Positions 113-10,313 of a stretch of DNA of 54,439 bases are shown piece after piece. Source of the DNA: a bacterium (lineage in GTDB: Bacteria; Elusimicrobiota; Elusimicrobia; Elusimicrobiales; UBA9959); assembly GCA_021811315.1 (NCBI GenBank), contig JAJZPF010000015.1, positions 1 through 54,439 of the forward strand. Reading direction: 5' to 3'. The translations under genes and the position numbers were made by a program. The notes below the pieces were generated by a model. It was not told where the DNA came from. It saw nothing but the letters and a program-made list of their open reading frames with translations, and made no database searches. Positions within the stretch are counted from its first letter, which is position 1. Every line of letters starts with the position of its first letter.

Positions 113-354
113 TTACCGAATATTTACCCGCCGCCTGCCTATACGGAAGTTCGAACCGATCTTTTTCAACTTTTCCCTGTTTTCCTCCGCTTTTCCGCTC
201 TCCGCCAGTTCTCCGACGTGAACCGCCTCGCGGTATAGTTCTATTTCCGGTTCGAACCGATTGTCTCCCTGCCGGGCAAAAGCTGCGAGTTTGTTTTCAA
301 TTTCCTTTTTATCATTGACCAATTGGGCTTTACGCTCAGCGTACTCGGACTGCG
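113..354 (-). pseudogene. 3' fragment of serine recombinase, severed by the IS21-family element
   Basis: This is the C-terminal coiled-coil tail of the large serine recombinase whose 5' part lies at 3137-4299. It encodes SEYAERKAQLVNDKKEIENK and ends at TAA 113-115 after a basic tail. Such tails follow the zinc-ribbon domain in the family. The IS element begins at 355, and bases 348-354 (GACTGCG on the plus strand) repeat at 3137-3143 as a target duplication. Joining the two parts with one copy of the duplication reads ...GHLTQSEYAERK... with no frameshift, for 466 codons including the stop. The GTG codon at 367 could start an 84-codon frame, but it lies inside the IS end, so independent expression is unlikely. 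Confidence 0.85.
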
Positions 355-437
355 TGTCACGTCCCACCTAATTGAGGCCGCCCCAGTCCCATGTAACCGA
401 GGCCGCTTTTCCGAATCTGTTTTACTCTAGCATTTTC

Positions 438-1277
438 TTATTTCCGCCTTTGCAACTTTGCCTCGCTTTCTGCGGGCCTCCGTCCAGTACTCCTTTCTTG
501 TTCTGCCGTCCGCTGTTTCGGCGGCACCGGATCCAGACGCAGGTCCGGTAAAACTATTCGGTCCTTCAGTCTGTAACTCTTGCCCTCGAAGACCACTACC
601 TTGGCCGCCTCGAACATCCGGTCTATCGCCGCGTTGGCCAGCACTGGGTCTGCAAACACTTCGCCCCATTCACTTATGTCCCGGTTGGATGTCAGGATCA
701 TCGCCGAATTCTGTTTGCGCCGGTCCAGTAAGTCGAACACTTCCTCCGATACCTCTCGCTTCATCGACACCACACCCCAATCGTCTATTATCCACAGCTG
801 TGCCGACAGGATGCGCCGGAATAAGCCGGCCAGGCTGCCGCGGGCCCGCGCGAATTCTATTTCGGCTATCAGTTTCTTAACGCTCGCGCAGTAAACACGC
901 AGTCCTTCCTTGGCAGCTTTCAGTCCCAGCCCTAACGCCAGGTGCGTCTTCCCCGTGCCTGTCTGCCCAAGGAACAGCGCTATCCCGCGCCGCTTGATGA
1001 ACTCCAAGTCGGATAGTTCTTCGACCGCCGCCTTATCCAGCTTGCGGTTGAAGCCCCAGTCAAAGCCCTCCAGGGCTTTTATCTCGGGGAAATCCGCGTT
1101 CTCGATGCGGCGCGCTATAGCAAGCTCCCGCCGCGCGTCCAGCTCGCGCTCAAGCAGCTCAGCCAGCCAGCTTAAGTCCATCGCACTGCCGTGCTCCGCC
1201 AACACCTCCTCAACTTCCTTCGCCGCCGCCGATAAGTGCAGCGACTTCAACTGTGTCTTTATGGTTTCTACTTTCAT
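438..1277 (-). CDS. istB: IS21-family helper ATPase IstB
   Basis: A 279-residue AAA+ ATPase that loads target DNA and stimulates the IstA transposase. The Walker A motif GQTGTGKTH is near residue 104 and the Walker B motif LWIIDDWG near residue 160. The N-terminal helical domain is typical of IstB, and length is near the family norm of about 250-270. Its ATG overlaps the istA stop by ATGA (1274-1277), so translation is probably coupled. The C terminus is rich in Arg and Glu (TAEQERSTGRRPAESEAK) and slightly longer than usual. No damage is seen. Confidence 0.95.
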   Translation of the reverse strand: MKVETIKTQLKSLHLSAAAKEVEEVLAEHGSAMDLSWLAELLERELDARRELAIARRIENADFPEIKALEGFDWGFNRKLDKAAVEELSDLEFIKRRGIALFLGQTGTGKTHLALGLGLKAAKEGLRVYCASVKKLIAEIEFARARGSLAGLFRRILSAQLWIIDDWGVVSMKREVSEEVFDLLDRRKQNSAMILTSNRDISEWGEVFADPVLANAAIDRMFEAAKVVVFEGKSYRLKDRIVLPDLRLDPVPPKQRTAEQERSTGRRPAESEAKLQRRK

Positions 1278-2887
1278 GCGTGTCCTTCCTCCTTATGCAG
1301 CCCTATGCCGGGCAGCAAATCTTTATACTCGGCTATGCTTCGCGCATACTTATGCCCGCTGACCGTCGGCTGGATCGGTGGCAGCGCCACGCCCTGCGCC
1401 GCAGCGTATTTCGCGTTCTCCAAAAAGCGCTCCACTACCCGGTAGCTCGTACTCCTAAGCGCCAGCGCTTGCCCGCAGGCCTGGTTTATCTCAGCGGCCG
1501 CGTACCGCTTGTCCAGGCTCAGCACGCCCCACACCTTGCGCGTATCCACGAAGCCCTGCCCCTGCTTTAAAACTTCCTCCACCCATTGGCTGACATTGGG
1601 GCCCAGCCGGCCAGCGCGCTCGACGTAAAACCCGCTTTCCCCTAGGCTTTGCTCCCAAGGCTTAAGATGGTGCCGCTTCGCCACTTTCATCTGCCGCGGG
1701 TCCCGGCTGCGCTCATACACCTCCAGCAACTGCGACTCCCGGTAAATAGTCACCTGCTTGGCGTCGGCGATTATCGTCACCATCTTGCCTGTCAGCCCCG
1801 CGCCCACCGCGTAATACCGGCTATCAAAACGCACATAGCCGTCACGCCGTACCAACCCTTCGCTGTACTGCTCCATGGCGTATTCAAGCGCCGGTAATCG
1901 CTTCATAGCCGATTTCTCTTCGGTCTCCCAGACCTCCGCCGGCCGCCGCCGCGTGGTCCCGTGCGGCTTGCCATTGGCCAACTCTACTTTGCCGCGCAGG
2001 TGCGCCTCTTCAGCCTCAATGCTTTCCCAGGCCCCGTCACGCGACTGCCGCAGCCGCCGCATATACGGCACCTGCTTCTCGACGTGCCCCTTCATCTGCG
2101 GCTCCCGCGGCGGCAGGCACTCCCAGAAAAATCCGTAATGCCCCGCAAATCGCTCCGCCACAGGGTTCAGCAGTGGCTCGTAAAGGCTCGCGGTCAACGC
2201 TATACACTTCGGGTTATCTATCGTGATCTTCCGCGGTACCCCGCCCAGCTCCCGGAACATGCTCTCGACGGCGCGCAGCGTGGTTTCCACGTCCATACGC
2301 CACACTAGGCGCACCAGCCGCCGCCGCGAATAACCCATCACGCCGATAAAGGCCCACGCTATGCGTTTACGGCCGCTTACCGGGTCCGGAACATGGCACA
2401 GCTTGCCCCAGTCCAGGATCAGCGCTTCGCCGGGGTCATGCGCTATTTCCGGAATTACACGCCCCTCGCCTTCTACGCTGGCTATGCCGCTGCGCGCAAG
2501 ATAACGGTAGAAACTGGACCGGCTTACCTCGGCCAGCACTTCTTTGGGCAACTCCTCGTAAACCGTTATCGGGTCCCACCCGGCCTCTAGGCGCCCTTCG
2601 ATCCAGCCGCGGATGGCTTCAAGCTTCTGGTGCTCGGCAGACTGCCGTCCGCTGCGCCGGTCCTCGTTATCGGGGAATACGGCCGCTGGATAGGCTGGCA
2701 GGGCTACAGGGCCGGCGCCGCGGCCTTCCGGAGGCAGATAGCCGCCGGCCTTTGCTTTATCGCGCAGCTTCTTTATCCGGCCCTTGCCGACTTTAAGGCT
2801 TGCGACGATATCCATTACAGATGCGCCGCTCATCAGCAATTCCACTATTTTCCGGTCCATCAGCCGCCTCCTGGTTGTACGCGTCAT
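1274..2887 (-). CDS. istA: IS21-family DDE transposase IstA
   Basis: A 537-residue transposase that cuts and joins IS21-type ends with IstB. The N terminus (about 1-45) is a helix-turn-helix (MSGASVMDIVASLKVGKG). The RNase H-like catalytic core carries the acidic residues in LILDWGKL (first D), ITIDNPK (second D) and MKGHVEK (E). The C-terminal part has the beta-barrel domain seen in IstA (YVRFDSRYYAVGAGL). Length and layout are normal and the frame is intact. It is transcribed from the right end, where six 35-bp-spaced end motifs precede the gene, so its own product may bind upstream of its promoter. The start is the ATG at 2887 after an AGGAGGATGA ribosome binding site. Confidence 0.95.
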   Translation of the reverse strand: MTRTTRRRLMDRKIVELLMSGASVMDIVASLKVGKGRIKKLRDKAKAGGYLPPEGRGAGPVALPAYPAAVFPDNEDRRSGRQSAEHQKLEAIRGWIEGRLEAGWDPITVYEELPKEVLAEVSRSSFYRYLARSGIASVEGEGRVIPEIAHDPGEALILDWGKLCHVPDPVSGRKRIAWAFIGVMGYSRRRLVRLVWRMDVETTLRAVESMFRELGGVPRKITIDNPKCIALTASLYEPLLNPVAERFAGHYGFFWECLPPREPQMKGHVEKQVPYMRRLRQSRDGAWESIEAEEAHLRGKVELANGKPHGTTRRRPAEVWETEEKSAMKRLPALEYAMEQYSEGLVRRDGYVRFDSRYYAVGAGLTGKMVTIIADAKQVTIYRESQLLEVYERSRDPRQMKVAKRHHLKPWEQSLGESGFYVERAGRLGPNVSQWVEEVLKQGQGFVDTRKVWGVLSLDKRYAAAEINQACGQALALRSTSYRVVERFLENAKYAAAQGVALPPIQPTVSGHKYARSIAEYKDLLPGIGLHKEEGHA

Positions 2888-2939: not shown

Positions 2940-3136
2940 TCCGGTTACATGGGAACAGGACCCCGTTTGCAGGATTCGGTTTGGTGGGATTAGAACCGGT
3001 TAAACCGGCCTCGGTTTGCTGGGAATGACCCTGGCAATACCGGCCTCGGTTAACTGGGAATAGATGCCGCCAATGCGGCCTCGATTAGGTGGGAATTACT
3101 GTCTGTTTTACGGCCTCGGGTAGCTGGGACGGAACA
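2940..3136 (-). repeat. Six transposase-binding-type motifs at exact 35-bp period (IS21 right end)
   Basis: A motif like CGGCCTCGGTTNNCTGGGA occurs with its GGGA at 2951, 2986, 3021, 3056, 3091 and 3126, each 35 bp after the last. The outer four copies (3006, 3041, 3076, 3111) keep the CGGCCTCG half. The inner two are degenerate. The period is a little over three helical turns, so all copies face nearly the same side of the DNA. At the left end two inverted copies sit 25 bp apart (362 and 387). This asymmetry could let the transposase tell the two ends apart. Confidence 0.85.
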
Positions 3137-4299
3137 GACTGCGTAAGGTGGCCTTGCAGTACCAAGTCCAGCAACTTGCCCAATTGGTCTGTAAGGATAA
3201 CCAAATTAACTCGCAGCTTTTGCCGGGCACTCTCCCCGGCCTGGGCCGACGCGGCTCGTTCCTTCTCCGCCATAAGGATGAGCCCGGCGGCCAGGGCCGG
3301 GGGTAAGGAAACCGATTTTAATTCACCTTTTATCTGCTCCGTTATTTCCTCTTCACGAACGTAGGGCTCAGCACAAGGCCCCTTGCGCTTGGTACAGCGC
3401 AGGTAGTTGTGTTCTTTCTGGGTTTCCGTGGTGATGAAGCAATCGCACTCCTGGCAGTGGAATACTCCCCGGTAGGTGTACGGCTTCAACCTTGGCCCCT
3501 TGGGCTTGCTTTTACGGAGCATTACGGCCTGGCAACGGTCGAACAGGTCTTTAGTTATGATCGCCTCGTGCTTGCCCTCGTAGAGCTCGCCCTTATACCT
3601 TATAAGCCCGTAGTAGACGGGGTTCTTGAGCATATACTGATAGTTGCCCACTGAAAGGGCGGTGTGCCGCCCTTTCAGGCCAACCTCATTCATTATGCGG
3701 CGAATTTCGGCCAACGGGTAGTCTCCTGACGAATACAGTTCAAAGGTTTTCCGGATAAAGACCGCCCGGTCTTTATCCGGATAGATCGTCTTGGTGTTCT
3801 TGTCGTTCAGGTAGCCGAGCGGGGCGCAACAGGGCCAAATACCATTGCGGAGTTTTTGGCGAAAGCCCCGCCGAATATTTTCCGACAGGTTATCAACGTA
3901 GTATTTGGACTGGCCGAACGCTATTGAAAGCATGAACTTTCCCTGCGGTGTAGGGTCAAACCAAAAGGTCGGAAACTTCAAGGCCGTTATCTTGGTGGTG
4001 TCCACCAAGTATATAATGCGCCCGCCGTCGATACTATTCCTAGCTAGGCGGTCCGGGTGCCAGGCGATTATGCCCTGCGCCTTGCCATCCTCGATAGAGG
4101 CTATCATGTCATTGAAGATTTCTCGACCCGGCTCCTTGGCGGTCTTGCTCTCAATGAACTCTTTTACAATTATGAGGTTCTCTTTCTTGGCGTATTCGCG
4201 GAGTTCCGCGAGCTGCCCCTCTATGGATAGGATTTGCCTGTCAGGTTCGTCCGTGGACTTTCTGGCGTAAAGAAAATACCGCATGTCTTGGTTCTGCAT
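3137..4299 (-). pseudogene. 5' part of large serine recombinase (interrupted by the IS)
   Basis: A site-specific recombinase of the resolvase/invertase superfamily, which cuts and rejoins DNA through a serine. The catalytic N-terminal domain holds YARKSTDE (the Ser nucleophile) and WHPDRLARN. The recombinase domain has GIWPCCAPLGYLN and NPVYYGLIRYKGELYEGKHE. A zinc ribbon has HCQECDCF with a later CTKRKGPC. A coiled coil follows and is cut at LLDLVLQGHLTQ. I prefer the ATG at 4299 (GGAGG four bases upstream) over 4311. Past 3137 the frame runs 17 codons into IS DNA and stops at 3085. The protein therefore keeps the catalytic and zinc-ribbon domains but loses about 78 C-terminal residues, including most of the coiled coil. 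Residual activity is doubtful. Confidence 0.88.
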
Positions 4300-4319
4300 A
4301 AGACCTCCCATACCTTGCG

Positions 4320-4500
4320 CTTAATGCCGGTTTGGCCCAGCAGGGCGGAACCGGCATTAAGGGCTAACTCCGCAACTCTCCGCCGCGCGTAAGGCCGGCT
4401 TTGCTTACCAAAGCTAAGACGGCCTTACATGCGGCGATAAAGAAGAAGATCGGTTCGGGAAACGCTCTGCGTTTCCTCAGGGCGCCAGCCCTGAAACTTC
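4320..4500. repeat. Cluster of four strong dyads upstream of the recombinase
   Basis: Directly upstream of the recombinase lie successive palindromes. CTTAATGCCGGTT (4320-4332) pairs with 4349-4361, with a GCCC/GGGC inner stem. CGCCGC...GTAAGGCCG...GCTTTG (4381-4403) pairs with 4409-4436. GGAAACGC-TCT-GCGTTTCC is followed at once by CAGGGC-GCCA-GCCCTG (about 4459-4495). These may be operators, part of an attachment or resolution site, or remains of palindromic elements. The sequence alone does not decide. Confidence 0.55.
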
Positions 4501-4535
4501 CGTAGGGGCAGGCGGCGGCTTTCCGTCGAGTTTAA
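4437..4535 (+). pseudogene. Inverted remnant of the recombinase 3' end with a palindromic insertion
   Basis: Plus-strand AAGATCGGTTCG near 4446 and AACTTCCGTAGGGGCAGGCG near 4500 match the last codons of the recombinase (complement of 128-165, encoding KIGSNFRIGRR). They are separated here by about 37 bp that form two perfect hairpins. The match ends at the CGGCGG tract. The recombinase is thus flanked on its upstream side by an inverted, interrupted copy of its own tail, as expected from a second decayed recombinase or a rearranged element end. No functional product is expected. Confidence 0.5.
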
Positions 4536-4621
4536 AAAACCTTGGGAATTTATATTTAATTTTAATTCTGCGCGCGCAGAAAATTTAAATTTTAATTCCG
4601 ATTTTTTCAAAAGTCAAAAAG

Positions 4622-4938
4622 TTCGGAGCTTCACCATCAAAGTTCGAGGCTACTTCGCGCAACATCCCGAGGAATCATTATAAATACCGCTTTCGATCTG
4701 TTTTAGCGAAGGAGTCCCGAGCTTATCCGCGAGATGTCGTCGCAGGCGTGGCCACGAAGCGCGGCCCCGCACTGCTCCTTGCCGCGAGAAGGCGGGTTCG
4801 CAGGGCGGCGGCACTAACGCGCCTTGCACCTGCTCCCAAGGTAGGCTGCATCTTATTGCAACCTCCTATGCGCGGCCTGCTGGCCGCTCCCGTCCGCCTT
4901 CGGCGTCCGTACAAATCAGAAATTATTCCCCGCGCGCA
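4622..4938 (+). repeat. Left arm of 317-bp inverted repeat flanking the AT-rich cargo operon
   Basis: Aligned without gaps to the complement of 8181-8497. By eye the inner ~248 bp (4690-4938) are identical, while the outer 68 bp (4622-4689) carry about eight substitutions. The arm is GC-rich, unlike the AT-rich DNA it bounds. It contains GCGGCC-AGCA-GGCCGC and other short dyads. One strand of the arm has no stops, but the substitutions in the outer part change amino acids, so it is more likely a DNA or RNA element than a gene. Similarity may extend to about 4596 on the outer side. Confidence 0.9.
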
Positions 4939-5002
4939 TCAATCTTCGCTGTTATAAGCCGCAACCAACCTTTCGTCCGCAATGTGTTTTCCGATAATTA
5001 AA

Positions 5003-5419
5003 TTATCGGAAGTTTTTAAAAGCAGGCTTGAGAACTTCTGTTAAAGCCAACTCGAAGATTTGCCGATCCGTTTCCACTTTGACTTCTTTCCAATAAATCA
5101 CTAAATGTCCCAAGTTAGAAGAAAAGAACCTGTGCCATTTATTGCTTTTCGTGTCTCCTGGAACTTTTTTGAATGCCTCGTAATAATGACTTTTCAGCCT
5201 ATTGAATAGCGGAGACGCTTTCCCAATATAGAGGCATTCTCCATCTTTTTTAAAATACACGTATAAGCCATGCCCTTTAGGGAGAACCTTCCTAAGTATT
5301 TCAATTTGGCTTTTTCTTGCTTCTGGACTACTTGGTTCCTGGTGCGTGAAGTCAAAAGAACTCCATGTTTCCAATGGCCACAGTTGATGTTCTGTAAGGA
5401 GTTTTTCGTAGTCAATCAT
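5003..5419 (-). CDS. GIY-YIG endonuclease domain protein
   Basis: A 138-residue protein with a single GIY-YIG domain that would cut DNA through a metal-dependent tyrosine/arginine site. Visible residues: GLY (51-53), YIG (64-66), Arg74 in RLKSHYY, Glu123 nine residues before Pro132, and Asn136. All key positions of the fold are present. An N-terminal segment of about 45 residues has no recognised domain. It is the last gene of the AT-rich cargo operon, 31 bases after the secreted-protein gene. Stand-alone GIY-YIG proteins occur in mobile elements, restriction systems and repair, and which applies here cannot be told. The left inverted repeat starts about 65 bp beyond its stop. Confidence 0.8.
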   Translation of the reverse strand: MIDYEKLLTEHQLWPLETWSSFDFTHQEPSSPEARKSQIEILRKVLPKGHGLYVYFKKDGECLYIGKASPLFNRLKSHYYEAFKKVPGDTKSNKWHRFFSSNLGHLVIYWKEVKVETDRQIFELALTEVLKPAFKNFR

Positions 5420-5450
5420 CTATATGCCTCATGGGAATTGCTCTTTTCTC

Positions 5451-5990
5451 TTACTTACCCTTTGCCGGATGTTTCGCTGCAACCTTTTTCACGCTCCGTG
5501 CTTTCTCTGAATTTGGAAATTTAAAAGCGTGCACCTCCTGATCAAACCCGTCTAATGAAGTGTATTTATAAATTCCGGCATATACGACCTGGGGAGAATA
5601 GTCAGTAAGAGATTGGTTTGACTTGAAGTTTTCACCTGTATACAGAAACGCAAACTGATGTATCCCTGTTTCAGCCGGGGTCAGCGAATCCGGATTAACA
5701 TCGAGCAAATATCCGTTTGCCATCTTTTGTATTGGAATCATCCATTTTACCGAATACAAGCACTCTTTATTTTCAGGCTGTTCGAAGTAGTTCTTAGCGA
5801 TATCCCCATTGGCTATTGCCATCCGGTTCATTGTACTTACCCTATCCAAAGCTAGCGGCAGAGATATATTTGAGCACCGTTGCGTATCTGATGACACCAC
5901 AGTATTAGCTTTTATAGAATCCGAGGACTTAGCCTGTGCAAAGGCTATAGAAGGCAGGCCAATCAGAAGAGTTAAAGCAATTGCTTTCAT
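5451..5990 (-). CDS. Secreted/periplasmic protein of unknown function
   Basis: A 179-residue protein with a clear signal peptide (residues 1-18, ending AFA-Q). The mature part has two cysteines (in QRCSN and KECLY) that could form a disulfide, and ends in a Lys/Ala-rich tail. I recognise no family. Its ATG overlaps the stop of the PD-(D/E)XK-like gene by four bases (5987-5990), so the two are translationally coupled. A periplasmic partner for a cytosolic nuclease-like protein is an odd pairing. Codon use is AT-rich like the rest of the cargo operon. Confidence 0.7.
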   Translation of the reverse strand: MKAIALTLLIGLPSIAFAQAKSSDSIKANTVVSSDTQRCSNISLPLALDRVSTMNRMAIANGDIAKNYFEQPENKECLYSVKWMIPIQKMANGYLLDVNPDSLTPAETGIHQFAFLYTGENFKSNQSLTDYSPQVVYAGIYKYTSLDGFDQEVHAFKFPNSEKARSVKKVAAKHPAKGK

Positions 5991-6838
5991 ACGCTAGCCG
6001 CCTCCTGTTTTTTTTCATTAAGCAAGAACTCTCTGGCTTTTGCCCTCGTAGTTCCATCCACCCTTTTTGAGGCGCAAATATATTCAAGGACTGGCATTTC
6101 CCATTTATGATTGAAGATATTTCTTCCTGCGCCCCATTTTGTTTGGATTGAATTCTTCGTATAACCCTTTTCCATCAAGAGACTAATAGCCTCTTTACGC
6201 GATCCATTTTTCAAGCACTGATAAAAATCAACAAATGTTTTTAAACCTATGGCCTCTCGAAGGTCACACATCTGCTTATTCTTTCTATCCGAATGCGTCT
6301 TAATCTGACCGGCATGCACCCTTGGGGGTTCATTAATCTCACTGGTCTGCTGTGGATAGATAAATTTGTTGTAATGACACATAAACTGAATCATCCTCAA
6401 TAACGGCATATGCTCCGAGACGGCGTTATTGTTGATCATCTTACTGCCTAAATCCTCTTTAATCTCCTTGATAAACTCCCTGACTAATTTAACTTTCCCA
6501 CCGCCGACCGTTTCATGTTGCTTACTTGAGGCATACTCAAAGAGAGCAATCTGTTCTATTTCGGTTGGCAATGTGGTTCCTCGAAACAATGCCGGGATAT
6601 ATTTTTTGCCGGCCTGGAATTTCTTCTGATACCGTGCTTCTCTCTTTCCCCAACTATAACAATCCATTGAGGGTTCCATATGGACGAGGTGCTTTGTTTC
6701 AGGGTTAAAAGCCACAACATCCAACTCGCACTCATAGCCACCTCGCGCTCTTTTACCTACAAGCACATTTTGCCGAACAAAATAACCCTTATAGGCGTAC
6801 CACTCACTGGCTAACTGTTCTAAAAAGTTTGAACTCAT
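5987..6838 (-). CDS. PD-(D/E)XK-like nuclease-fold protein (putative)
   Basis: A 283-residue protein. Its N-terminal ~90 residues resemble the restriction-endonuclease-like fold: Glu12 in the first helix (LEQLASEWYAYKGYFV), then ECELDVVAF (Asp40), then LVHMEPSMD (Glu55). The lysine expected two residues after the last acid is Ser57, so activity is uncertain. A basic stretch KKFQAGKKYIP follows. The C-terminal part (about 150-283) is helical and unrecognised, and could bind DNA or a partner. It lies second from the operon end, five bases after the zinc-ribbon gene. I infer a nucleic-acid-related role; the family assignment is moderate at best. Confidence 0.55.
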   Translation of the reverse strand: MSSNFLEQLASEWYAYKGYFVRQNVLVGKRARGGYECELDVVAFNPETKHLVHMEPSMDCYSWGKREARYQKKFQAGKKYIPALFRGTTLPTEIEQIALFEYASSKQHETVGGGKVKLVREFIKEIKEDLGSKMINNNAVSEHMPLLRMIQFMCHYNKFIYPQQTSEINEPPRVHAGQIKTHSDRKNKQMCDLREAIGLKTFVDFYQCLKNGSRKEAISLLMEKGYTKNSIQTKWGAGRNIFNHKWEMPVLEYICASKRVDGTTRAKAREFLLNEKKQEAASV

Positions 6839-6843
6839 AGTTT

Positions 6844-7452
6844 TTATTCTCCTTCCACTTTAGACTCATGTATTTGCTCTTTAACTAAATATTTGCGGAT
6901 TGCCCATCCGCAACTCGCGAAAAGCAGCAGGAACCACATGGTTATTAAAAAAATACCTGCTATGCTAGAAGCCGCAGGCAAGGAAGGTTCAGGAGGGAGT
7001 GGTATTATCTTAAATATAGCGACTGGCAATATTACGCAAATCGCACTCAGAATGACGGGCCAGGCAATAAAACCCTTCAATTCAATTTTATAGTACCTAA
7101 AAACCGTACCCTTCACAATACGATTAAGAAAGGCAAAGAAAACTATATAGGCGAAGACCAAAACTAGAATTTCAAAAATTTTGTGCGTGCCAGAAAATAC
7201 AGTCTTGAATACCATATTAAACAGCACGTTGAAAATGAAAACTGGCCACCAAACCGACCAGCCTATTTTCACATTGGTTGCCGTAAATAAATGTTTGCGG
7301 CGGGCTGGTGGAGTAAGCGAGGTCCCTCTGCGCATGCGGTCCTGAAAAGACATCGTGGTGGTGCCCTGCGAGAGCGGTTCGCTTTTTCTGCCACAATGTA
7401 TACAGGATGTGGAATTTTCTTCGATTTCTTTTTGACAATTATTACATTTCAT
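6844..7452 (-). CDS. Zinc-ribbon protein with transmembrane segments
   Basis: Starts with a zinc ribbon (MKCNNCQKEI...CIHCGRKSE, CxxC...CxxC), then a ~45-residue cytosolic stretch and four hydrophobic segments (near residues 65-80, 90-110, 125-150 and 165-190), ending in a charged tail. Such zinc-ribbon membrane proteins are common and usually unassigned. I chose the ATG at 7452 over the upstream one at 7479 because AAGGG lies at a suitable distance and the zinc ribbon then sits at the N terminus. The gene follows the HTH gene by 46 bases in the cargo operon. Confidence 0.7.
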   Translation of the reverse strand: MKCNNCQKEIEENSTSCIHCGRKSEPLSQGTTTMSFQDRMRRGTSLTPPARRKHLFTATNVKIGWSVWWPVFIFNVLFNMVFKTVFSGTHKIFEILVLVFAYIVFFAFLNRIVKGTVFRYYKIELKGFIAWPVILSAICVILPVAIFKIIPLPPEPSLPAASSIAGIFLITMWFLLLFASCGWAIRKYLVKEQIHESKVEGE

Positions 7453-7498
7453 GTTTACACCCTTACTGGAAGATTGCACGAAACTATTCTCTTTACCC

Positions 7499-7675
7499 CT
7501 ATCCGTTAGATCGAGACTTTATAAATTGAGCCAGAGCAGTAGGGCTTATCTTCCATTGCCCTATCTTTACAGCTTTAATCTCTTTTTTTGCAATCAAATC
7601 CCTTACCCACTCCTCGGTAATGCCAAGTTTTTTAGATACCTGACGAACAGTCAGATATTTTGCGATATCATCCAT
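7499..7675 (-). CDS. Small excisionase-like helix-turn-helix protein (58 aa)
   Basis: A 58-codon gene. The product begins MDDIAKYLTVRQVSKKLGIT and continues EEWVRDLIAKKEIKAVKIG, then WKISPTALAQF. This is the classic layout of MerR/excisionase-type HTH_17 proteins: helix-turn-helix, a basic recognition region, and a short wing. AGGAG six bases upstream fixes the start. It is the first gene of the AT-rich operon, directly behind the promoter at 7723-7751. It could repress that promoter or act as a recombination directionality factor for an integrase. Family membership is fairly sure; the role is inferred. Confidence 0.85.
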   Translation of the reverse strand: MDDIAKYLTVRQVSKKLGITEEWVRDLIAKKEIKAVKIGQWKISPTALAQFIKSRSNG

Positions 7676-7722
7676 TAAAAGCTCCTGATTCGGTGAATCC
7701 CCGCTAATCCCTATTAGTCCTT

Positions 7723-7751
7723 ATTTTAGTGCTTTTGCTATTCGCAGTCAA
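7723..7751 (-). promoter_or_regulatory. Sigma70-type promoter of the cargo operon
   Basis: On the minus strand TTGACT (7746-7751) is followed by a 17-base spacer and TAAAAT (7723-7728). This is ten of twelve consensus bases at ideal spacing. The predicted start near 7716 lies about 40 bases before the HTH gene. A further TATACT-like box lies upstream, near 7775. Confidence 0.75.
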
Positions 7752-7854
7752 TGGATATCCTTATAAAAAGTATAGCAGACCATCCCGACAGCGTAGTGTC
7801 GCGATGAAAAAGCGATTTTCTGGCATTTTTAATTTAATTTGGGGGAGGGTCATT

Positions 7855-7887
7855 ATGCTGTATCATGAATGGGTGGGAATATTATAA
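7855..7887 (+). CDS. Possible 10-codon leader peptide before the structured RNA
   Basis: ATG at 7855 follows a strong purine-rich ribosome-binding-like tract (GGGGGAGGG, five bases away) and encodes MLYHEWVGIL then TAA. It ends as the first stem of the candidate RNA begins. The good ribosome binding site is the only evidence, and a chance match is quite possible. Confidence 0.25.
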   Translation: MLYHEWVGIL

Positions 7888-8049
7888 GGCGGGCCAGGCC
7901 GGAGGCGGCGGCCATCTCGCGGCAAGCCGCTGCCGGCCTGGTCCTACCTTATGATCTTTGCGGTTTCTGCTCCCTGCCGGTGGCTACAAAGCAATTACAG
8001 AAAAGACCACCGCGGCGGCCGCAGCAGCGGACGCCGGGGTGGTTTTTTT
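7884..8049 (+). ncRNA. Candidate structured small RNA ending in an intrinsic terminator
   Basis: Three nested or successive stems appear on the plus strand. ATAAGG (from 7884) pairs with CCTTAT (7947-7952). Inside it GCCAGGCCGG pairs with CCGGCCTGG, and GGCGGCGGC with GCCGCTGCC around the loop ATCTCGCGGCAA. A second hairpin has CTTTGCGG...CCG...CAAAG. The third is the terminator at 8006-8049. It does not match 6S, SRP, RNase P or tmRNA patterns that I know. A weak promoter may lie near 7838-7866 or 7877-7882. It is divergent from the cargo operon. Confidence 0.5.
8006..8049 (+). terminator. Intrinsic terminator
   Basis: ACCACC-g-CGGCG pairs with CGCCG-g-GGTGGT around a ~14-base loop, followed by seven T residues. 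Only the plus strand has the T run, so it ends a rightward transcript, probably the candidate RNA. Confidence 0.75.
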
Positions 8050-8099
8050 ATAATTACGGGGCCACCGGCATAAATGCTGTTCAACATTATCAGGAACAG

Positions 8100-8146
8100 G
8101 CCCGCGCCGCGAGCGTATTCAGCAGAATACGCTGGCGGGCGCGGGC
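8100..8146. repeat. Long imperfect hairpin beside the right inverted repeat
   Basis: GCCCGCGCC (8100-8108) pairs with GGCGCGGGC (8138-8146), and AGCGTATTC (8112-8120) with GAATACGCT (8125-8133) around an AGCA loop. An internal loop of 3 versus 4 bases separates the stems. It is followed by A/T-rich TATATAATAA and preceded by a CTGTTC/GAACAG dyad. It resembles REP-type or element-end palindromes. Confidence 0.6.
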
Positions 8147-8180
8147 AAAATCTGTATATAATAAACTCAGTTCTTTGCAG

Positions 8181-8497
8181 TGCGCGCGGGGAATAATTTC
8201 TGATTTGTACGGACGCCGAAGGCGGACGGGAGCGGCCAGCAGGCCGCGCATAGGAGGTTGCAATAAGATGCAGCCTACCTTGGGAGCAGGTGCAAGGCGC
8301 GTTAGTGCCGCCGCCCTGCGAACCCGCCTTCTCGCGGCAAGGAGCAGTGCGGGGCCGCGCTTCGTGGCCACGCCTGCGACGACATCTCGCGGATAAGCTC
8401 GGGACTCCTTCGCTAAAACAGATCGAAAGAGGTATTTACAGTGTTTCCGCTGGATGTTGCGCGAAGTATCCTCGAACTTTGATAGTGAAGCTCCGAA
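8181..8497 (-). repeat. Right arm of 317-bp inverted repeat
   Basis: Gap-free inverted match of 4622-4938 (coordinates sum to 13119 throughout). The arm nearest the cargo (8181-8430) appears identical to its partner, and the outer 67 bases carry about eight differences. The segment between the arms could invert by homologous recombination. The stop-free frame seen in one strand is not under evident protein selection. Confidence 0.9.
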
Positions 8498-8516
8498 TTT
8501 TTTTCTTAGAAAAATA

Positions 8517-8635
8517 TTCTTTGTGTCCGGACAGAAACGCAGGATAGCGTAGTCCACCCCGAATTTTTTACTTCGCAAAAAGTTCTTTGTGTCCGGGAAG
8601 AAGCGCAGGATCGCGTAGTCCACCCCGAATTTACG
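8517..8635. repeat. Tandem direct repeat, 66-bp period, two full copies plus a partial
   Basis: TTCTTTGTGTCCGG begins at 8517 and again at 8583, each followed by a near-identical stretch ending CGTAGTCCACCCCGAATTT. The 3' part of each unit is a small A/T hairpin (GAATTTTTT...AAAAAGTTC). A related hairpin ends the right arm of the inverted repeat (near 8494-8519), suggesting a third, older unit. No gene is seen. Confidence 0.7.
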
Positions 8636-8676
8636 TCCGCGGCCACGCACGATAGCGCGGTCGGCCAGGTTCGGAT

Positions 8677-8702
8677 TAAAAAGCCCCGCAGGGGGCTTTT
8701 TA
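8677..8702. terminator. Bidirectional intrinsic terminator
   Basis: AAAAAGCCCC-GCAG-GGGGCTTTTT, perfect and symmetrical. It separates the mobile region from the signalling genes that begin at 8763. Confidence 0.85.
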
Positions 8703-8762
8703 ATTGCCGGGGGCAGGGGCCGGCTTTGCCGCGGGGCTAATTTTATACAATTATTCTAACCT

Positions 8763-10313
8763 ATGACCAATAAAGCCAGCATCCTCGTGGTGGACGACGA
8801 ACCGCAGATAGCCGAGATGATCTCCGCCTCGCTGCAGCTGCACGGCTACGCGGTCTCGGTGGTCTACGACGGAGAGCAGGCGGTGAAGAAAATAGCCGCG
8901 GAAAAATTCGACCTGGTGATCACGGACATCCAGATGCCCGGCATGGACGGGATCACCGCCCTGGGCGAGATGAAAAAAATAGACCCGGAGCTGGAGGTCA
9001 TAATCGCCACCGGGCACGGGACCATGAGCACGGCCATCCAGAGCATGCGCAAGGGCGCCTTCGACTACCTGCATAAACCTTTCGAGAACAAGGAGCTGCT
9101 GGCCGTGGTCGGGAAAGCGCTCGAGAAGCGCAAGTTCAACGATATTACAAAGGCCATTTTCTCCACCATCAAGCCGGAAGAGCTGCTGCGCGTCACCATC
9201 GACTCCGTAACGCGGATACTTAAAGCGGAGGAGTCGCTTTTGGTGCTGCCGGATAAAGGCGGGCGCCTGAAGGTGGCGGTCTCGGAAGGCCTGGAGGACG
9301 AAGCGCGCCTGAACTCGAGGCTCGGCCTCTGCGACAGGATGATGGGGCGCCTGGGCGGGGAAACGAAGTCCGTCATACTCGTCGACGAGCCGGCCAGGGA
9401 CAAGTCCTTCGCCGACCTGCCAGGCATAAGCGAGATAAAATGCGCGCTCTTCCTGCCGCTGATGGAGGAGAACAAGCCCTCGGGGCTGATAAGCATAAAC
9501 CGCACGCGGGAGGGCGAATATTTCACCGAGGACGACCTGCAAAGGGCGAAGATCTTCGGCTCGCTGGTGAACCTGGCTCTCAGGAACTCCAACCTCTACC
9601 GCCAGCTTCAGGACACCCAGTCGCAGCTGATCCAGGCGGAAAAGATGTCCGCGCTCGGCCAGCTGGCCGGCGGGCTCGCTCACGAAATAAACAACCCGCT
9701 CTCCGGCATACTCGGCCTTACCCAGCTCGTGCTGGAAAATACCAAGCCCGACAGCCAGAATTTCACGGACCTGAAAGATATAGAGAAAGCCGTCTTCCGC
9801 TGCAAGAAGATCATCGTCTCCCTGCTGTCCTTCGCCCGGCAGGAAAAGACGCGCATGGAGCCGGTGAACCTGAACGAAGTCATAGAGGAGACCCTGACCC
9901 TCTGCGCGCGCCAGATGGAACTCAAGAGCGTGCGGATAACCAGGCAGTTCGCGCAGGGCCTGCCCATGGTGAACGGCGACTACCAGCAGCTGATGCAGGT
10001 TTTCCTGAACCTGTTCACGAACGCGCGCGACGCCATGCCCGAAGGCGGCGAGCTTTCCGTGGGGACCAGCCTCCTGAAAGACCCGTCGGGCCGGGAGCTG
10101 ATAATGACCACGGTCTCCGATACGGGGACAGGGATAAAGCCTGAAATACTTGCGAGCGTTTTCGACCCTTTCTTCACCACCAAGCCGGTAGGGAAAGGCA
10201 CGGGCCTGGGGCTTTCGGTCTGCCTGGGCATAATAAACAGGCATAACGGCACGATAAAGGCGTACAACCGCCCCGACGGCGGCGCCACCTTCACCCTGAG
10301 CCTGCCGGTCTGA
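8763..10313 (+). CDS. Hybrid sensor histidine kinase with N-terminal receiver domain (REC-GAF-HisKA-HATPase)
   Basis: A 516-residue cytosolic signalling protein without membrane segments. The receiver domain (about 5-120) has the acidic pocket, phospho-acceptor Asp55 (TDIQMPGMDG) and Lys105. A GAF-like sensor region spans about 135-275. The HisKA domain has His307 in GGLAHEINNPLSG. The ATPase domain has the N box NLFTNARDAMPEGG (near 416-429), DTGTGI and GKGTGLGL. A receiver placed before the kinase suggests it takes phosphate or docks with another kinase, then signals onward. The CheY-like gene four bases downstream is the likely partner. No clear ribosome binding site precedes the ATG. Confidence 0.92.
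   Translation: MTNKASILVVDDEPQIAEMISASLQLHGYAVSVVYDGEQAVKKIAAEKFDLVITDIQMPGMDGITALGEMKKIDPELEVIIATGHGTMSTAIQSMRKGAFDYLHKPFENKELLAVVGKALEKRKFNDITKAIFSTIKPEELLRVTIDSVTRILKAEESLLVLPDKGGRLKVAVSEGLEDEARLNSRLGLCDRMMGRLGGETKSVILVDEPARDKSFADLPGISEIKCALFLPLMEENKPSGLISINRTREGEYFTEDDLQRAKIFGSLVNLALRNSNLYRQLQDTQSQLIQAEKMSALGQLAGGLAHEINNPLSGILGLTQLVLENTKPDSQNFTDLKDIEKAVFRCKKIIVSLLSFARQEKTRMEPVNLNEVIEETLTLCARQMELKSVRITRQFAQGLPMVNGDYQQLMQVFLNLFTNARDAMPEGGELSVGTSLLKDPSGRELIMTTVSDTGTGIKPEILASVFDPFFTTKPVGKGTGLGLSVCLGIINRHNGTIKAYNRPDGGATFTLSLPV

Follow-up and report, generated by a model that had tools for sequence, protein, structure and literature searches.

A Five-Gene Operon with a Predicted PD-(D/E)XK Nuclease as Probable Cargo of a Mobile Island Linked to tRNA 3' Ends in an Elusimicrobiota Genome

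Introduction

Tycheposons of environmental bacteria are cargo islands that lie at tRNA genes and have tyrosine recombinases, and the SCC/Ccr elements of staphylococci, which occupy one fixed site, rlmH, have a large serine recombinase that adjoins exchangeable cargo. The first of these resembles relatives of the locus discussed here in lying at tRNA genes, and the second resembles it in its recombinase. The DNA analyzed (hereafter the window) is a stretch of 54,439 nucleotides from a bacterium of the Elusimicrobiota, contig JAJZPF010000015.1 of GenBank assembly GCA_021811315.1. It holds an operon of five minus-strand genes at 5003-7675, which is probably the cargo of a small mobile island whose serine recombinase would act at the ends of tRNA genes.

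With the Islander/TIGER tRNA islands, the related elements in other genomes share accessory cargo at a tRNA 3' end, a tRNA still called as intact, an integrase gene at the tRNA end and turnover at hotspots; they differ in having a recombinase of the large serine rather than the tyrosine family, and long inverted arms that bound the cargo. The likeness to SCC/Ccr is limited in that the Ccr models score the window recombinase far below their cut-off (best 72 versus 900 bits) and in that the target in relatives is a tRNA gene rather than rlmH. Tn7-like transposons with defense cargo also have defined ends and diverse defense genes (PMC8649781), whereas no transposase is recognized beside the present arms and a location at a tRNA end is frequent.

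According to one account, targeting of tRNA genes is known for tyrosine integrases alone and not for serine integrases (PMC4383910). In Mycobacterium abscessus prophages, tyrosine integrases are reported to use 23 sites, 16 of which overlap a tRNA or tmRNA gene, and six sites use serine integrases (PMC10654092); of streptococcal elements with serine integrases (n = 16), 14 are reported to lie in protein genes and two in the spaces between genes (PMC5357655). If the reading given here is true, a clade of serine recombinases acting at tRNA ends across the phylum, with reading frames that end in the tRNA gene, would be an exception, and a source of recombinases with that specificity. The arms would likewise allow cargo boxes to be catalogued across a phylum about which little is known, with known and perhaps unknown defense operons. 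No description of these elements was found in the literature searched, a weak negative because only open-licence papers were covered.

Inverted Arms and a Structured Right End

The operon is bracketed by two inverted repeats of 323 bp, a left arm at 4616-4938 (plus strand) and a matching right arm at 8181-8503 (minus strand), which are 97% complementary and span 3.9 kb between arm ends. The left arm has an inner side of the "left" type (GCGCAT.CAA...) and faces the recombinase; the right arm is of the "right" type (GCGCACTGCAAAG...). The operon block is AT-rich: its GC content is about 39-45%, and that of 500-base windows further along the contig is about 55-69%. An initial annotation of this DNA, made from the sequence alone, described the five genes as a possible new nuclease system and contained neither the repeats, nor the AT-rich island, nor the neighboring recombinase.

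Arm matches (E<=0.001), some of them short or partial, occur in 33 of 61 related genomes, the window's own included: 30 of 32 in the genus, three of five others in the family and none of 24 in the order. The genome of the window itself gives 13 matches with a 361-base query and 12 with the 323-base query. Among the matches listed, 26 neighboring pairs lie 1-40 kb apart, of which 17 point inward (+-), three point outward and four plus two point the same way; these counts were entered by hand, and the genomes are not independent. Arms within one element are 95-99% identical (five pairs), and those of different elements have a median identity of 74% (166 comparisons, four at or above 93%). No exact match to the 34-base arm core was found in viral contigs, and no arm was found in phages or plasmids.

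Another contig of the same genome repeats the arrangement, with a recombinase piece 82% identical to that of the window followed by an arm, 23 kb of genes and an inverted arm. By eye, the genes of this second island (contig C30, L009 and L010) include a large molybdopterin oxidoreductase and ACR3-, ArsC-, ArsM- and ArsR-like genes. A second kind of element joins the arm core to a different serine recombinase (beside L058) and to type I restriction genes, with no tRNA in the stretch; the restriction islands bounded by the arm core span 2518-16485 in L058 and 387-16673 in L059.

Conservation extends inward from the right arm. A module of about 340 bp (7840-8180, minus strand) is shared by elements with unrelated cargo and is conserved in 14 aligned elements whose cargo differs. 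Three hairpins with compensatory changes can be drawn in it (about 8096-8155, 8001-8048 and 7891-7944), the middle one followed by a T run as in a terminator. On the alignment, 97.7% of hairpin cells are paired, compared with 39-49% when the hairpins are slid, and cells with a double change number 29 against a shuffled mean of 10.1, a value reached in none of 500 shuffles. For the arms themselves no structure is claimed, since double changes occur in only two of 39 pairs.

Recombinase Genes That End in tRNA Genes

Beyond the left arm lies the larger piece of a gene for a large serine recombinase (3085-4311, minus strand), with Resolvase (Pfam E 1.6e-19) and Recombinase (E 3.6e-13) domains; an IS21-type element separates this piece from the 3' part of the gene. 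Because the contig starts inside this damaged recombinase unit, the tRNA junction is deduced here from relatives. Such relatives of the recombinase occur in 127 of the phylum's 247 genomes. The loci compared are those of the best 29 relatives other than the window's own (33-95% identity).

In 24 of these 29 loci, a tRNA called by ARAGORN has its 3' end facing the 3' end of the recombinase gene within 600 bp, the exceptions being L159, L161, L165, L170 and L171. Counted with a narrower limit, overlap with the tRNA gene was found in 18 of 29 loci; the wider limit is used for all figures cited. The recombinase frame stops inside the tRNA gene in 20 of the 24, just past it in three (L149, L151 and L153) and before it in L152. 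The overlap amounts to 42 nucleotides with tRNA-Asp (4/4), 30 with tRNA-Glu (5/5) and 12 with tRNA-His (4/4), and varies with tRNA-Ser. From the aligned end up to the tRNA, no stop codon interrupts the recombinase frame at 23 of 24 loci, and neither of the other two frames stays open at any (0/24); the facing tRNAs are still called intact. With a frame that stops within the tRNA gene or beyond it, integration would set the last codons of the recombinase.

Outward sequence is available for 11 left-type arms, eight of which adjoin a recombinase (the window, L009, L047, L049, L052, L053, L056 and L065), one a tRNA directly (L191) and two neither. Where a tRNA adjoins, the arm tips copy its last bases by eye, for example ACCCCGCCA with tRNA-Asp and CTCCG with tRNA-Ser, as would be explained by joining at the tRNA 3' end.

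A Hotspot Beside tRNA-Ser(CGA)

The insertion site is marked by a chromosomal gene on the far side of the right arm, which by eye encodes a response regulator/histidine kinase-like protein (8763-10313, plus strand). Close homologues exist in 24 other genomes of the genus, and the upstream side of 20 of them was compared with that of the window (21 loci). An arm lies directly beside the kinase gene in the window, L184, L187, L189, L190 and L191, with a short match in L181, and tRNA-Ser(CGA) lies beside it with no arm between in L177, L185, L188 and L194. The site is unoccupied in G019 and G025, whose kinase-like proteins are 96% and 74% identical and whose tRNA-Ser(CGA) stands straight before the kinase gene. 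A full box is present in L191, where tRNA-Ser(CGA), a left-type arm, 17 kb of sequence, a right-type arm and the kinase gene follow one another. L179 retains the tRNA and, by eye, a remnant of the recombinase unit; L183 has arm pieces further from the kinase gene; and the contig of L180 is too short at this locus. Outside the 20 fetched loci, the match coordinates place an arm within about 200 bp of the kinase gene in G012 and G023.

Proposed Mechanism and the Case for a Composite Transposon

Comparison with relatives shows that the two inward arms and the structured right module form a box that holds different genes in different genomes, that this box lies at a hotspot which in relatives adjoins tRNA-Ser(CGA) and is vacant in some species and occupied in others, and that beside the box stands a large serine recombinase whose relatives are mostly found against tRNA 3' ends. 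A recombinase, the element's own or one acting in trans, would join the box to the tRNA 3' end and leave the tRNA unbroken. As the recombinase of the window is broken, its island would need help from another copy.

A broader proposal, advanced tentatively and with a little under an even chance of being right, is that these loci represent a class of elements in which two inverted-repeat units are stacked at tRNA 3' ends, one of them a unit with the large serine recombinase and the other a cargo box, distinct from it, that is bounded by arms and structured at its right end. The recombinase would target tRNA genes, which would supply its last codons and its stop, and would move the box in cis or in trans; the box would be a genus-wide slot for defense and metabolic operons, and the five-gene operon, with its unnamed nuclease family, one plug-in.

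Several observations weigh against an island joined by the recombinase at tRNA ends. Simple integrase attachment gives direct repeats, and the ends here are inverted. The window contains no tRNA. At the kinase locus, tRNA-Ser lies 1-6 kb away, without an arm, in L182, L186, L192 and L193; L190 has a single arm and a tRNA 5 kb away; neither arm nor tRNA is found in L178, L195 and L196; and the full box of L191 has no recombinase. Two left-type arms, in L062 and L063, adjoin neither a tRNA nor a recombinase: L063 has no match to either, and L062 has no recombinase match and its nearest tRNA about 1.7 kb off. Location at a tRNA end would therefore be common but not strict, or these two elements have lost it. 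Two further statistics of the right module are not striking, as seven pairs show a double change against 5.1 expected, a number reached in 30 of 500 shuffles, and there are 12 pair types against 13.1.

Some of the same observations fit a composite transposon, in which a transposase that is not seen would move the arms as dispersed repeats, the recombinase having been inserted separately. This alternative is unlikely. It would account for arms that are inverted, near-identical and paired, for the left-type arms of L062 and L063, for the absence of a recombinase from L191 and for the arm cores around the type I restriction genes of L058, where the neighboring serine recombinase is a different one, yet it leaves aside that the 3' end of an adjoining tRNA is, by eye, repeated in the arm tips, that one recombinase clade stands against the left-type arm in 8 of 11 readable elements and that the same chromosomal site is reused. 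An island joined at tRNA ends remains the preferred reading.

Cargo of the Arm-Bounded Boxes

What other boxes carry bears on the function of the operon. A family survey covered 103 of 125 cargo open reading frames (ORFs), leaving out 20 from contig C30 and two likely antisense ORFs of L056. Response regulators (six) and histidine-kinase ATPases (five) lead the Pfam families, followed by N6 methylases, type I restriction parts and TPR proteins (three each) and Fic proteins (two). The PADLOC leaders are PbeA, MAD2 and methyltransferases, with 4 of 103 each. Ten cargo proteins chosen for closer comparison gave matches to Gabija in L047 (GajB E 6e-262, GajA E 3e-204), type I restriction-modification in L058 and L059, a type II methylase in L053 and a ThsB-like protein in L058; three of the ten had no match. 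The box thus often carries defense genes and not only those.

The proteins of the operon that resemble nucleases (PD-(D/E)XK and GIY-YIG) may cut DNA, most likely that of invading phages or plasmids, a target suggested by the defense systems that fill some other boxes. Against such a role stand the partly metabolic or efflux-related cargo of other boxes, a serine in place of the usual catalytic lysine in the PD-(D/E)XK protein, and the results of PADLOC, in which none of the five proteins matched at E<=1e-3 (the best being PDC-S14 at E 0.0029 and mad1 at E 0.012, both partial). Because the box is not reserved for defense, a defensive function of the five genes is considered plausible, at rather less than even probability, and their status as the cargo of an island is considered very likely.

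The Five Genes

The five ORFs are present on the minus strand exactly where the initial annotation placed them. The first gene (7499-7675) encodes a protein of 58 residues of the HTH_17/excisionase type, a DNA-binding protein whose Pfam match (E 1.4e-12) exceeds the gathering score; the annotated regulator is thereby confirmed as a family member, and it may regulate the operon. The second (6844-7479, 211 residues) had been called a zinc-ribbon membrane protein. Three transmembrane-like segments agree with the membrane part of that description, and the Zn_Ribbon_1 match (E 6.5e-5, 23 bits) narrowly misses the 25-bit Pfam cut-off. The third (5987-6838, 283 residues) encodes the protein with a predicted PD-(D/E)XK fold, in which residues 1 to about 165 correspond to a widespread family and the remainder forms a helical C-terminal part.

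The fourth gene (5451-5990) encodes 179 residues with no family in Pfam, PADLOC, PHROGs or NCBIfam. Its N-terminus (MKAIALTLLIGLPSIAFAQA) has an apparent signal peptide, read by eye without a signal-peptide program, as expected of the secreted protein first proposed. The fifth (5003-5419) encodes a stand-alone GIY-YIG domain of 138 residues (PF01541, E 2.7e-5, 24.8 bits versus a gathering score of 22.6), which upholds the earlier assignment of a second nuclease-type protein; its fold model, a single-sequence prediction, is unusable (predicted local distance difference test score, pLDDT, of 45).

From the first gene to the last, the intergenic gaps are 19, 5, -4 and 31 bp, and the annotated overlap at 5987-5990 is indeed one of 4 bp between the 283- and 179-residue genes. 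The "one good promoter" said to precede them did not stand out, as the best upstream site (7751-7723) matches 10/12 and the region holds seven sites against 6.1 expected from shuffling. The accessory character attributed to the gene set is supported, and the set matches no described system. Rfam gave no match at gathering scores in the window and nothing beyond chance-level matches in 4560-8760.

A Widespread Family with a Predicted PD-(D/E)XK Fold

The third protein had been guessed to be PD-(D/E)XK-like, and the structure model of 5987-6838 bears this out with a confidently predicted core. Sequence searches gave little guidance: Pfam, PADLOC, PHROGs and NCBIfam yielded no family at a score that could be used, and a sequence search of the PDB returned a single chance-level match. 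A scan of one genome per species (84,980 species) found relatives at 67 distinct loci in many phyla. Since 48 of the 62 ORFs recovered from these loci span 160-179 residues, the protein can be described as a family of about 160 residues with a C-terminal extension. Judged from its sequences, this putative PD-(D/E)XK family occurs widely, and none of the libraries searched has a name for it; among 42 members, none matched PADLOC at E<=0.01, and Pfam and NCBIfam gave nothing useful.

The fold model was built from those 42 sequences, namely the window protein and the 41 ORFs that remained of the 62 once filters for length and for 90% identity had been applied. Its mean pLDDT is 84.5, rising to about 96 over the first 150 residues. 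The alpha-beta-beta-beta-alpha-beta core (H5-16, E20-29, E35-45, E50-57, H63-84 and E94-100) has block values of 96-98 over residues 11-100. Foldseek leaders include an R2 retroelement protein (the best, E 1.9e-3), PspGI and Can2/Card1, with XisH weaker and no match at or below 0.001. The R2 retroelement protein carries an endonuclease domain of the PD-(D/E)XK type. With this domain, PspGI, Can2/Card1 and XisH, the 283-residue protein shares the predicted fold and the order of core elements. It differs from known PD-(D/E)XK nucleases in having no recognized sequence family and in replacing the usual lysine with serine. On the model, the PD-(D/E)XK fold is well supported.

Residues E38, D40 and E55 are invariant in all 42 sequences, and the usual place of the catalytic lysine is taken by a nearly invariant Ser57. 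K73, R66 and R69, which are invariant in the helix that follows, might replace the missing lysine.

The search patterns used found no relative in viral contigs, and phage sequences likewise gave none; plasmids gave three partial relatives. According to existing annotation, one plasmid relative lies near TIR-domain genes (L043, Acinetobacter) and another near RNaseH-domain/AAA genes (L042, Azospirillum).

An improbable alternative is that the nuclease-like genes serve the element itself, in homing or cargo exchange, and not defense. Homing and target-cleaving elements do use GIY-YIG and restriction-like folds, and the R2 protein at the head of the Foldseek list would suit this idea; against it, most family members are short genes that stand alone and have differing surroundings, and a comparison of arm-bounded elements found the nuclease-like gene to be common to the window and G027 alone.

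Do the Five Genes Belong Together?

The idea that the five genes form one dedicated nuclease-based defense system, as the initial annotation implied, is still less credible. Tight spacing with a 4-bp overlap, two nuclease-type proteins and known defense systems in some arm-bounded neighbors speak for it, but no co-occurrence was seen: no other member of the set was matched (tblastn E<=1e-3) at any of the 67 nuclease-family loci (flanks of up to 6 kb per side, shorter near contig ends). Of the two outcomes that the initial proposal named as refuting it, rare co-occurrence of homologues is what these loci show, and lack of a predicted nuclease fold is not seen.

Searches of the phylum point the same way. 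In 247 genomes, its own included, the 283-residue protein has two matches besides itself: a homologue in G027 (71% over 193 residues; its contig is also L066 of the scan) and a 49-residue piece of the C-terminal part in G233. In the 246 other genomes, the membrane protein has weak homologues in two, and the GIY-YIG protein has only short matches, in 47, inside frames of 252-594 residues that are probably of the UvrC or exonuclease type. The GIY-YIG, membrane and secreted proteins have no matches in plasmids, which together with the fetched loci made up the search space for the secreted protein. Among the genus's 31 other genomes, two (G013 and G022) have homologues of the HTH_17 gene (E<=1e-6), on arm-bearing contigs with different neighbors, the G022 copy being cut by the contig end. 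In G027, the nuclease-like gene belongs to an arm-bounded element of its own, with CsgG-like, Sel1-like and other genes (named by eye). Single members with other partners, as in these three genomes, argue against a single dedicated system.

Exchange of single genes or short runs is seen more widely, since a comparison of 214 cargo ORFs revealed further examples common to elements. Around the nuclease family, clusters that appear methyltransferase-like by eye occur near only five and three of the 67 loci, so that no association is claimed. The initial interpretation is therefore partly supported, and the five genes are better read as one filling of an exchangeable cargo box. That the arm-bounded segment is instead an invertible switch flipped by the recombinase is very improbable, for although inverted repeats beside a serine recombinase are the usual switch layout, the inner sides of the two kinds of arm are unlike, and it is the left type that faces the recombinase in all eight elements read with one adjacent.

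Other Features of the Window and Related Elements

The IS21-type genes inside the recombinase gene occupy 438-2887 (minus strand; IstB 438-1277, IstA 1274-2887). Beyond them, comparison by eye with L065 identifies a C-terminal remnant of the recombinase at 127-356 (minus strand), with the likeness ending before the expected tRNA junction; positions 1-127 are unlike the end of the L065 recombinase unit, which may reflect a deletion, a rearrangement or an assembly edge. The unit has a flank at 4495-4615 (plus strand) that is an inverted copy of the recombinase 3' end, its partner being reduced to 24 bp at 128-151. Inverted flanks of the recombinase unit, of 98-133 bp, occur in 11 of 17 loci with >200 nucleotides upstream and were not found in L154 or in five distant loci (L172-L176), so that they are not a general feature.

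Individual boxes also share genes with one another. A regulator that by eye is of the XRE type (71-73 residues, 73-82% alike) lies near the left arm in L053, L054 and L056, whose cargo differs, and is perhaps a platform gene. The RND-type efflux genes (named by eye) of L056 and L184 are 76-79% alike. The exceptional left-type arms lie at 10700-11040 in L062, where a gene that looks pilin-like by eye starts just outside, and at 10100-10450 in L063.

At the outer edge of the right arm, two tandem units of 66 bp (8493-8624, plus strand; 86% alike) each consist of an AT-rich palindrome and a tail. By eye, similar units lie beside tRNA-Ser in L177, L188 and L190 and outside the arm in L057. The palindrome of the second unit (8559-8624) resembles, again by eye, the unoccupied site beside tRNA-Ser in G019, and the two units look like scars of earlier insertions.

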